Positions 26,417-31,149 of a stretch of DNA of 64,000 nt are shown here, piece by piece (the stretch's first letter is position 1; every line of letters starts with the position of its first letter). Under the pieces are notes generated by a model. That model made no database searches and had not been told where the DNA came from. It was given only the letters and a program-made list of their open reading frames with translations. The translations under genes were made by a program, and so were the position numbers. Source of the stretch: Planctomycetota bacterium (GTDB lineage Bacteria > Planctomycetota > Planctomycetia > Gemmatales > Gemmataceae); NCBI GenBank assembly GCA_016873095.1, contig VGYC01000015.1, forward strand, positions 1 to 64,000. The letters are read 5' to 3'.

Positions 26417-27826
26417 CTACTGGGTTTTCCTTGGCTTTCTTGATTCCAGCGCCTTGACCTGTCCCTGTCGCGCATAATCGATGGCTTCCCCGAGGATGCG
26501 CGCCGACTCTTGCGGAGCGTGAAAACCCATTGAGTTCTCTGAAAGCACGAAATCGAGGCGCCACTGGGCCTTGCGATGCAGACCATGGATCGGCTGCAGT
26601 TGATCGTCGGCGACGCCGGCGTTTCTTGCCGCCTTCATTGCATCGAACATCTGCATGAGCGCGTCCTCGGCGCGATCGGCGAGTTTCCTTGTCCGGTCCT
26701 GAATCGTCGCGACTCGCGCCTGGATCTCCGCCTCGCCGTAGCGATGGCACACCATGCAGGATCGCTCGACGTTCAGTAGCGGACTGCGGACGTGATGGTC
26801 GCTGACCTTGACCGCCCCCTCGCGCTTGTAGGGCATGTGGCAATCGGCACACGATACGCCGCTGCGGGCGTGAATCCCCTGGTTCCACAGTTCGAACTCC
26901 GGATGCTGTGCCTTGAGAACGCCCGCTCCGGTTTCGGGATGAGTCCAGTCGCTGAAACCTGTATCGTCGTAATAGTTTTCGATGCTATCGACCTTCAAGC
27001 CCTTGTGCCACGGATAGGTCAGCAGCTTGCCTTCGCCCTTGAAGTAGTATTCGACATGGCATTGCCCGCAGACGAAGCTGCGCATCTCCTGGCGGCTGGC
27101 GAGCTTGTTTGGATCGTAGTCCTGTTCGCGTGAGCCCTTGCGCCAGCGCTCGATGCTGGGCATGTGCGGCAATGGATCAGGACTCGTGGCCAGTGCCTTG
27201 ATCCCGGTGAGAAAGCCCGGACGGGTCACGCGTAGTTGCGTTGTCTTTGGATCATGGCAATCGATGCAAGTCACGGGATGCTTCACGAGCTTGCGTGCCT
27301 CGGCCAATGGCATCTTGCATACGGCCTCGAAGCCTTTCATGACGTCGCCGTTGCCGGCCTCGCGATACGCCGGAATGATCGACGAATGGCAATGCAAGCA
27401 GGCTCCGGGCTGCTTGAACTTCTTGGTGCGCTCGGTGAGGTCCTGGTCGGCAAGCATGTAGGCATGGCCGCGCTCCTCGCGGAAGTCCGTGCTGAAAGCG
27501 TAGCCGGCGTACAGCCTGACCAAGCGCGGAGCCTGCTCGAGCTTCGAGAACGCCTCGCTGCCGCCATGCCGGGTCCGCTCCGCGTCGACAGTGAGCAGGT
27601 AGCTCCTGTATTGCCGCGGAAAATTCTCGCCCCACCTGGCCGGATCCACCGAGTTCTCGTCAAGATCGACGACACGAAAAACGTGCTCGCGCGCTTCCCG
27701 CTTGCGCTCGAAAATGTTCATGAGCAAGGCGGCCAGGCCAAAGGTGATGCCGGCCGTGATAACAATCGTGACGACATATATCATGTAACCACGGCGTCCC
27801 GGAGATGGCGGTGTCGTACCACTCAT
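26417..27826 (-). CDS. nrfA: Pentaheme cytochrome c nitrite reductase, catalytic subunit
   Basis: NrfA reduces nitrite to ammonium with six electrons, outside the cytoplasmic membrane. The 469-residue product has an N-terminal membrane anchor (about 15-37) and five heme motifs: CLHCH (143), CIDCH (187), CGQCH (253), CADCH (326) and CMVCH (357). Active-site landmarks are the Tyr of 'CHVEYYF' and the His of 'KAQHPEFELW'. The first, catalytic heme normally uses CxxCK; here it is CxxCH, as known for a minority of NrfA proteins. AAGGGAG five bases before 27826 fixes the start. It follows nrfH by 22 bases. Confidence 0.93.
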   Translation of the reverse strand: MSGTTPPSPGRRGYMIYVVTIVITAGITFGLAALLMNIFERKREAREHVFRVVDLDENSVDPARWGENFPRQYRSYLLTVDAERTRHGGSEAFSKLEQAPRLVRLYAGYAFSTDFREERGHAYMLADQDLTERTKKFKQPGACLHCHSSIIPAYREAGNGDVMKGFEAVCKMPLAEARKLVKHPVTCIDCHDPKTTQLRVTRPGFLTGIKALATSPDPLPHMPSIERWRKGSREQDYDPNKLASRQEMRSFVCGQCHVEYYFKGEGKLLTYPWHKGLKVDSIENYYDDTGFSDWTHPETGAGVLKAQHPEFELWNQGIHARSGVSCADCHMPYKREGAVKVSDHHVRSPLLNVERSCMVCHRYGEAEIQARVATIQDRTRKLADRAEDALMQMFDAMKAARNAGVADDQLQPIHGLHRKAQWRLDFVLSENSMGFHAPQESARILGEAIDYARQGQVKALESRKPRKTQ

Positions 27827-27848
27827 GTAAACTCCCTTCCCTGCCACG

Positions 27849-28295
27849 TCATCTTTGCGGTCCATGTCCCACCGAGGCATGGCAATGCACGCAATTCAAC
27901 TTCTCGCCTCCATGATCCGCAACTTCGCTGACCAGGTCCCGATGGCAGTCGATGCAGGCGTCGTTGAGGACCCTGAGGTTGCGCGGGCGAATGCGGATCG
28001 GCTCGGCAAAATCCTGGAGCGTGAAGCCTTTGGAATGCCAGAAGCCGTTCTCCGCCTTCACCAGATACTTGGGAATGAATGCATGCGGCATGTGGCAATC
28101 GTTGCAGCTCGCGTGGGCGTGATGGCTCGCCTTCTGCCAGCCATCGTAATGCTCGCGCATGACGTGGCAGTTGACGCACGCCGTCGGGTCGTTGCTGAAA
28201 TAAGACCAGCCCTGGGCATAGCGAAATGTGAAGCAGCCCAGACCGAGCGCGACGCCGGCGAGCACACACAGCACGGCAAGTCGTCGCGATGGCAT
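27849..28295 (-). CDS. nrfH: Tetraheme quinol dehydrogenase NrfH
   Basis: NrfH is the small membrane-anchored partner that takes electrons from menaquinol and passes them to NrfA. The 148-residue product has one N-terminal membrane helix (about 5-25) and four CxxCH motifs: CVNCH, CNDCH, CIDCH and CVHCH. Length and order match the NapC/NirT-family NrfH type. A GGAG eight bases upstream supports the ATG at 28295. The nrfH-nrfA order is the standard two-gene nrfHA operon, and the pair allows respiratory ammonification. Confidence 0.93.
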   Translation of the reverse strand: MPSRRLAVLCVLAGVALGLGCFTFRYAQGWSYFSNDPTACVNCHVMREHYDGWQKASHHAHASCNDCHMPHAFIPKYLVKAENGFWHSKGFTLQDFAEPIRIRPRNLRVLNDACIDCHRDLVSEVADHGGEKLNCVHCHASVGHGPQR

Positions 28296-29744: not shown

Positions 29745-29750
29745 GCGGTC

Positions 29751-30320
29751 GCCGTAGCCGCAAGCTGCCAGCTTGCAGGCTGGGGACCGTCGCATACGCA
29801 GCAAAATACTGCCGCCGCGGCAGCCGACAAGCTGGCAGCTTGTCGCTACGATGACCCTCGCCGTAGCCGCAAGCTGCCAGCTTGCAGGCTTGGGACCGTC
29901 GCACACGCATTGAGATTGCCGCCGCGGCAGCCGACAAGCTGGCAGCTTGTCACTACGATGAGCCTCGCCGTAGCCGTAAGCTGCCAGCTTGCAGGCTTGG
30001 GACCGTCGCACACGCATTGAGATTGCCGCCGCGGCAGCCGACAAGCTGGCAGCTTGTCGCTACGATGACCCTCGCCGTAGCCGTAAGCTGCCAGCTTGCA
30101 GGCTTGGGACCGTCGCACACGCATTGAGATTGCCGCCGCGGCAGCCGACAAGCTGGCAGCTTGTCGCTACGATGACCCTCGCCGTAGCCGTAAGCTGCCA
30201 GCTTGCAGGCTTGGGACTGTCGCACACGCATTGAGATTGCCGCCGCGGCAGCCGACAAGCTGGCAGCTTGTCGCTACGATGACCCTCGCCGTAGCCGCAA
30301 GCTGCCAGCTTGCAGGCTTG
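29751..30320. repeat. REP/BIME array: five ~107-bp units plus a partial sixth
   Basis: Units start at 29751, 29860, 29967, 30074, 30181 and 30288, a spacing of 109, 107, 107, 107 and 107 bases. Each full unit holds a direct REP (GTAG, then a short link, then the hairpin CAAGCTGCCAGCTTG) and an inverted REP (CAAGCTGGCAGCTTG ending in CTAC). Between them lie two conserved linkers, one with GCCGCCGCGGCAGCC. The first unit differs most in its linker; later units are nearly identical, which suggests recent amplification. The sixth unit stops after its direct REP, 20 bases before the transposase start codon. The array fills the 595-bp gap after hom. Confidence 0.93.
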
Positions 30321-30339
30321 CAGCGAACGGGGGTTCGCC

Positions 30340-31077
30340 ATGGCACTTCGGGAATATGTGACGCGGCGCAATCTGCCGCATTGGTTTGTCCCTTACGCCT
30401 GGCATTTCGTGACGTACCGGCTGGCGGGCACGATTCCGGCGCCGGTGCTTTATCAACTGCGCCAAACTCGAGACAAGCGCTGGCGGCAAGCCAGGGATAC
30501 CGGGAACGGTACGCCGGAGTTGCGCGCACAACTGCACAAGCAATTCTTTGCAGCCTACGATCAGTATCTCGACCAATCGTGCAAGATCGACTGGCTGGCA
30601 AACCCGCAAGTGGCGGGGATGATCCGAGGCAATCTCTATCATCATCGCGGCAGCAAGTATGAGCTTCTTTCGTTTTGCATCATGCCAAATCATGTGCATG
30701 TGTTGCTGCGGCCAATGGAAAAGGAGATCGATGAAGCGAGCGCGCCAGCAAGGCTGCTTGCGGCTACGAGCGACGACATTTCTGACGAGGCTTCAGATGG
30801 TAAGGGGCCGCTGGCAGGGATCATGCACAGCTTGAAGAGCTACACGGCCAACCAGGCGAACATCATCCTGGGCAGGACGGGGCAGTTCTGGCAGCATGAA
30901 GCGTTCGATCACTGGGTGCGGGATGAGGAGGAGTTGGAACGGATCGTCAATTACATCGCGTGGAACCCGGTCAAGGCGAATCTCGTCGCCAGGCCCCATG
31001 ACTGGTACTTTGGGTCGGCGCATGATCGGTTCTTGCAAGATGGAATGGAGGAGGGCTTCCTGTTGTGGCCGGGGTGA
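30340..31077 (+). CDS. REP-associated tyrosine transposase (RAYT, Y1/HUH family)
   Basis: The 245-residue protein has the RAYT pattern. An N-terminal 'RNLPHWFVPYAWHFVTYRLAG' region is followed by the HUH metal motif in 'CIMPNHVHVLLRP' (near 120). The C-terminal block includes 'SYTANQANIILGRTGQFWQHEAFDHWVRDEEELERIVNYIAWNPVKANLV', read here in pieces, with candidate catalytic Tyr in 'NYIAWNP'. Such enzymes nick single-stranded REP hairpins beside a GTAG tetranucleotide. The gene is flanked by exactly such REPs on both sides. It is longer than most RAYTs because of an insertion at about residues 132-157, part of which is REP-like DNA. The ATG at 30340 is the first in-frame start outside the REP. 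Confidence 0.9.
   Translation: MALREYVTRRNLPHWFVPYAWHFVTYRLAGTIPAPVLYQLRQTRDKRWRQARDTGNGTPELRAQLHKQFFAAYDQYLDQSCKIDWLANPQVAGMIRGNLYHHRGSKYELLSFCIMPNHVHVLLRPMEKEIDEASAPARLLAATSDDISDEASDGKGPLAGIMHSLKSYTANQANIILGRTGQFWQHEAFDHWVRDEEELERIVNYIAWNPVKANLVARPHDWYFGSAHDRFLQDGMEEGFLLWPG
30749..30769. repeat. Decayed inverted-REP-like sequence inside the RAYT gene
   Basis: CAAGGCTGCTTGCGGCTACG resembles the inverted REP (CAAGCTGGCAGCTTG, two to three bases, GGCTACGA) with a shortened hairpin. It encodes residues in the low-homology insertion after the HVH motif. It could be an old REP insertion kept in frame, or chance similarity. Confidence 0.45.
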
Positions 31078-31086
31078 AGAAGCACA

Positions 31087-31149
31087 CAAGCTGGCAGCTT
31101 GTGGCTACGACGGAGCGCGAGCTGGCCGTAGCCGCAAGCTGCCAGCTTG
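31087..31149. repeat. Inverted REP pair downstream of the RAYT gene
   Basis: An inverted REP (31087-31108, CAAGCTGGCAGCTTG then GGCTAC) and a direct REP (31128-31149, GTAG then CAAGCTGCCAGCTTG) start nine bases after the stop codon. Their sequence matches the upstream array, but the order is reversed and the spacer is shorter. Confidence 0.88.

Follow-up and report, generated by a model that had tools for sequence, protein, structure and literature searches.

A putative REPtron with a TnpA-REP gene of the subclass 2.4 type in a planctomycete-like genome

The window, by which we mean the whole 64-kb stretch of DNA that was analysed, contains a RAYT gene which is preceded by a tandem array of short repeats and followed by two further copies of the same REP (Table 1). 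The array starts 10 nt behind the end of a homoserine dehydrogenase gene, and from the opposite side a MuiA-like DUF4139 gene converges on the locus. TRF run on the window reports positions 29749-30320 as a tandem repeat with a period of 107, 5.3 copies and 96% matches. The hairpin core of the repeat, CAAGCTGSCAGCTTG, occurs ten times in the window, as compared to 0.00 copies expected after shuffling.

Table 1. Positions of the RAYT gene and of the REP elements in the window.
Feature	Position	Strand	Remarks
Five array units, GTAG to GTAG	29754-30290		starts at 29754 (109 nt) and at 29863, 29970, 30077 and 30184 (107 nt each)
REPIN unit 1, 96 nt	29754..29849		CC REP (GTAG-CC) on plus strand 29754-29775, spacer, CG REP on minus strand 29828-29849
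REPIN units 2-5, 94 nt each, with 13-nt joints	29863-29956, 29970-30063, 30077-30170, 30184-30277		period 107
Single CC REP, all that is left of a truncated sixth unit	30291..30319	+	20 nt 5' of RAYT start codon
RAYT / TnpA-REP gene, 245 aa	30340..31077	+	HUH = NHVH (117-120), WQ (184-185), Tyr205 in YIAWNP
Decayed REP within RAYT coding sequence	30745..30767	-	GTAGCCGCAAGC-AGCC-TTGCTGG; in frame, residues 136-143 (PARLLAAT)
Downstream CC REP	31087..31108	-	core nine bases past RAYT stop codon
Second downstream CC REP	31128..31149	+	foot facing the foot of the REP at 31087..31108; core at 31135

Each array unit comprises a REPIN, i.e. an inverted pair of REPs. The third and the fourth unit are identical, the fifth differs from them by one base and the second by three. 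The preliminary description of this DNA had already named five units of 107-109 bp and a partial sixth ending 20 bases before the gene, and had stressed the near-identity of the last four units; its coordinates and distances are right, and the near-identity holds with 0 to 3 base differences. The lone REP of the sixth unit folds as single-stranded DNA into a bulged hairpin of -11 kcal/mol (z -3.3). A hairpin at the ribosome site before the RAYT start codon, CGAACGGGGGTTCG, was folded as well and is not unusual (z -0.86). The inverted REP pair behind the gene was correctly placed by the preliminary description; however, its GTAG feet face each other, as they do at the junctions of the array units, and it is therefore not a pair of the REPIN type.

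Since the 13-nt joints were copied together with the REPINs, the 107-nt array was probably lengthened on site after the REPIN had spread, either by local tandem duplication or by REP-to-REP strand transfer, and would not be the product of fresh insertions. Tandem arrays of near-identical REPINs, and clusters of REPINs adjoining RAYTs, were described for Pseudomonas fluorescens SBW25 (PMC3116915, Bertels and Rainey 2011). The array presented here resembles the SBW25 clusters in its inverted-pair unit and in the near-identity of tandem REPINs, including their flanks, beside a RAYT, but it has a lower copy number and belongs to another RAYT group and another lineage.

The reading frame of the RAYT gene is intact, as are the HUH motif and the catalytic tyrosine. 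The best protein family match is NCBIfam NF047646 (REP_Tyr_transpos) with 74.4 bits and an E-value of 8e-21, which lies slightly under the curated cut-off of 80 and places the protein as a homologue narrowly outside this equivalog; the score for Pfam Y1_Tnp (PF01797) is also slightly under its curated cut-off. AlphaFold2, given an alignment of 39 sequences, yields a model with a mean pLDDT of 85 and a pTM of 0.82. Its top match among the solved structures in Foldseek is 4er8, the REP-bound TnpA-REP of E. coli (E 4.6e-8), followed by IS200-type transposases. Among the 39 aligned relatives H118, W184, Y205 and N209 are invariant, and H120 is present in at least 90%. The residues by which the E. 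coli enzyme contacts GTAG (W94, Q95, H101 and R104) are, as judged by eye, matched in the window RAYT, whose W184 and Q185 stand in the context FWQHEAFDH. Fold and motifs thus agree with the Y1/HUH transposase-like gene noted earlier. The host genome contains one full copy of this RAYT, and the wider family has six members there in all. Among named RAYTs, those nearest to it come from Schlesneria MAGs, and the host is called planctomycete-like on the evidence of this one gene.

The host genome (G000; 8.36 Mb in 548 contigs) contains 68 exact copies of the hairpin core, compared to none for the reversed control. The genome-wide count had been proposed as a check by the preliminary description. 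REP loci and background were scored in 639 kb of host sequence around the REP sites. In this sequence 45 REP loci are situated outside the window, 42 of which are intergenic according to rough gene calls that assign about 86% of the sequence as coding. The base preceding the foot is a C in 60 of 63 elements. Two REP copies have a double foot, with GTAG at both ends (L184:1315 and L188:9325).

The short inverted pairs follow a clear rule. All 22 carry their GTRG feet on the outside, which is the REPIN arrangement, and 21 are heterodimers of a CC REP and a CG REP (GTRG-CC / GTRG-CG; p 5e-6). One GTAG foot is combined with one GTGG foot in 17 of the 22 (p 0.007 versus random pairing). The unit that spread is the REPIN and not the single REP, and the single REPs appear to be remnants of such pairs. 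Heterodimeric pairing was rejected as a general rule of the REP family, because many pairs in two other genomes of the order, G111 and G112, are homodimers.

A Y1/HUH protein with hairpins on both sides could also be taken for an insertion sequence of the IS200/IS605 type, in which the REPs form the ends of the whole locus. That is extremely improbable: only one full copy of the gene is found in the genome, as against many REPs without it, no tnpB adjoins, the hairpins are inverted instead of being in direct order, and the tyrosine motif is the Y---NP of class 2 and not Y---Q. At the locus the RAYT has REPs on either side, and these belong to a dispersed family occurring in inverted pairs, as expected of a REPtron with REPINs.

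The unlike pairing of the REPs (GTAG/GTGG, CC/CG) is a testable hint of distinct left and right REPIN ends. Different guide tetranucleotides would imply different predicted cleavage sites at the two ends. The host REPIN might accordingly be a two-ended IS605-like element, with GTGG-CG and GTAG-CC ends, that is able to hold a passenger gene, but we consider this quite unlikely. Two host loci bear on it. At G000:C95 (L208:9789-10604) about 0.7 kb with an LRR gene (217 aa) separate the two halves of an otherwise standard CG/CC REPIN, and the half-spacers weakly resemble the spacers of other REPINs (p 0.03 and 0.02). At G000:C54 (L201:9396-9880) an orphan gene of 127 aa is located between inverted REPs sharing about 33 nt, and its left half-spacer matches REPIN spacers (p 0.002). 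These loci may represent insertions into REPINs or the capture of passengers. A homologue of the C54 gene with 62% identity is encoded in G007 (L277), where it lies between cassette-like repeats reading ALHLTA, which are possibly of the integron type.

The RAYT coding sequence itself contains a decayed REP, which corresponds to the host CC REP minus a short internal stretch and had escaped the preliminary description. In the AlphaFold2 model it occupies a loop of low pLDDT between HUH and Tyr. Aligned with the REP consensus sequences it reaches a score of 18.0. A chance resemblance of a GC-rich coding stretch to the REP has to be weighed here, as mismatches and a deletion are present in the element, its hairpin does not stand out (z -1.7) and the match is weak when compared to the local flanks alone (14, p 0.03). 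We nevertheless regard chance as very unlikely, because with its foot and spacing in place the element is the best non-canonical site in the 639 kb of host sequence, where the best background site scores 15.0, and because it shares its loop with intact REPs of the three closest relatives, each of which carries its own REP there. In the closest one, G111:C265 (59% identity), the loop holds three direct copies and one inverted copy of GTAGGGCAAGCGGCCTCGCTTGCC. Of the other two, L018 from a Schlesneria MAG contains a complete pair of REPs placed back to back, which over 46 nt is identical to a pair situated 5' of the gene, and L019 has six 27-nt units. The in-gene REP of the window most likely goes back to an old insertion, which was fixed in the RAYT gene itself with the reading frame preserved in a flexible loop.

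Of 142 non-redundant homologues that were scanned, 93 are full-length genes, and 10 of these have a stretch in common with their own flanks to a degree reached in none of the shuffles. The stretches cluster at two places, the HUH-Tyr loop and a loop in the N-terminal part near residues 37-57. In-gene matches in L090 were discarded as they are due to neighbouring paralogues and not to REPs. A stretch shared with the flanks was also seen within the RAYT genes L070:4974-5594, L074:4953-5669, L076:3302-4024, L023:4893-5639 and L225:1252-2247; this set comes from other phyla (Bacteroidota, a Caldithrix MAG) and from the relative G026, and several of its stretches are located in an N-terminal loop. 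The RAYT of G111:C265 (L240:1492-2331) lacks the second His of HUH beside the insertion of four REPs, and its reading frame is terminated by the TAG that belongs to a GTAG foot in the flank.

Intragenic REPs, as well as families of palindromic repeats in Planctomycetes, are known from the literature (PMC3733652, Di Nocera et al. 2013). The in-gene REP resembles the intragenic GTAG REPs and the Rickettsia palindromic elements discussed there in being a short palindrome which keeps the frame on insertion and which a loop can accommodate. In contrast to those elements, the gene hit here is that of the transposase thought to move the repeat.

Subclass 2.4 of the TnpA-REP proteins, which is group 4 of Bertels, was defined by the motifs NH[IFV]H, WQ and YIxNNP, by long or double-foot REPs with GTRG, and by in-frame REP insertions between HuH and Y, which are a hallmark of this subclass (PMC6006769, Quentin et al. 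2018). Judged by its motifs, the window RAYT is closer to subclass 2.4 than to groups 2 and 3, which are proteobacterial. It shares NHVH, WQ and Y---NP as well as the in-frame REP, and the locus has the long GTRG-footed and double-foot REPs, the REPtron layout and the occurrence in scattered phyla in common with that subclass. It differs in YIAWNP, where a W replaces the middle N of YIxNNP with the class 2 signature Y---NP being present, in the decay of the in-gene REP to one partial copy, and in the host REPINs, which are mostly heterodimers. With the E. coli TnpA-REP and its BIMEs (subclass 2.2, group 2; 4er8) it has the HUH/Y1 fold, the GTAG-contact residues W, Q, H and R, and a tandem order of REP and inverted REP in common. 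The E. coli motifs DHLH, WE and YIHYNP are, however, replaced by NHVH, WQ and YIAWNP, the window RAYT has an extra N-terminal part and a loop insertion, and the host REP has no mid-stem mismatch. The preliminary description had referred to a layout known from Proteobacteria; this can be refined in that the protein fits subclass 2.4 and the host belongs to a non-proteobacterial, planctomycete-like group. Nothing is new about the layout, the array or the presence of a REP within the gene, and what is added here is the lineage, the sequence and the REPINs with unlike ends.

The distribution of the REP was compared across the order, with 102 genomes covered. High numbers of the footed REP were seen in just three of these, the host (62), G111 (69) and G112 (49); three further genomes contain 2 or 3 matches each, and all others lack it. 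One stray match was found in a viral contig collection. The genome G111 contains the closest RAYT of the order, but that gene is flanked by a REP of its own which differs from the one of the window. In G112, which is 92% complete, no RAYT was found beside the shared REP, the nearest family member being several hundred bases away from a REPIN. The checked RAYTs of G111 and G112 adjoin other REPs or no copy of the REP of the window. The link between REP and RAYT is real, but it is not one to one, because G112 is rich in the REP without a RAYT beside it. The expectation that copy number would track the presence of the RAYT is thus borne out by G111, rich in the REP and home of the closest RAYT, and not by G112. 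As the examined REPs of G112 have no adjoining RAYT, either the RAYT was lost there or the REPs were mobilised in trans.

Taken together we consider it highly probable that the locus, which lies in the planctomycete-like genome of an uncultured host, represents a REPtron whose RAYT is of the subclass 2.4 (Bertels group 4) type and mobilises the REPINs. Fold, motifs, feet, copy number and pairing all fit the RAYT embedded in an amplified REP/BIME array that had first been proposed. The 245-aa HUH/Y1 protein would bind single-stranded REP hairpins beside the GTRG foot, Tyr205 would cut beside the hairpin, and after rejoining of the strands the REPIN would have been copied or moved to intergenic sites. 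GTAG-guided cleavage was shown for enzymes of groups 2 and 3 only (PMC8266576, Corneloup et al. 2021). By analogy to these assays on the E. coli and Stenotrophomonas relatives, which belong to other groups than group 4, binding, cleavage and mobilisation of the REPs are most likely functions of the RAYT described here.

It is rather unlikely that the repeats are merely old and the RAYT is inactive now, with the array being a tandem repeat which is kept by slippage or selected as a hairpin at mRNA 3' ends. Many REPs are indeed found at most 10 nt from an upstream stop codon, and duplication of the joints together with the REPINs is what slippage would produce. The decay of the in-gene REP, the REPs kept by G112 without an adjoining RAYT and the His missing from the G111 RAYT would also be in line with such a history. 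However, frame, HUH and Tyr are intact in the window, the dispersed REPINs retain both hairpins and feet, and the occurrence of frequent REPs in only 3 of the 102 genomes points to spread rather than to ancient conservation.

The locus, whose gene is intact, whose array is young and whose REPs can be counted, extends the group 4 / subclass 2.4 RAYTs to a planctomycete-like lineage. Together with the relatives that carry their own REP several times in the loop between HUH and Tyr, it forms a natural series for studying whether RAYTs target their own genes and whether REP and RAYT co-evolve.

Two other features of the window were recorded. On the minus strand (26417-28295) a cytochrome c552 is encoded beside a cytochrome of the NapC/NirT type, which corresponds to an NrfA/NrfH-like pair of an ammonia-forming nitrite reductase. 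Between 11985 and 13369 several tandem repeats with lengths of 45-57 nt, in which GACGAC and CGCCCGCGC abound, are located in or beside a coding region and probably represent a low-complexity acidic/basic stretch of a protein.
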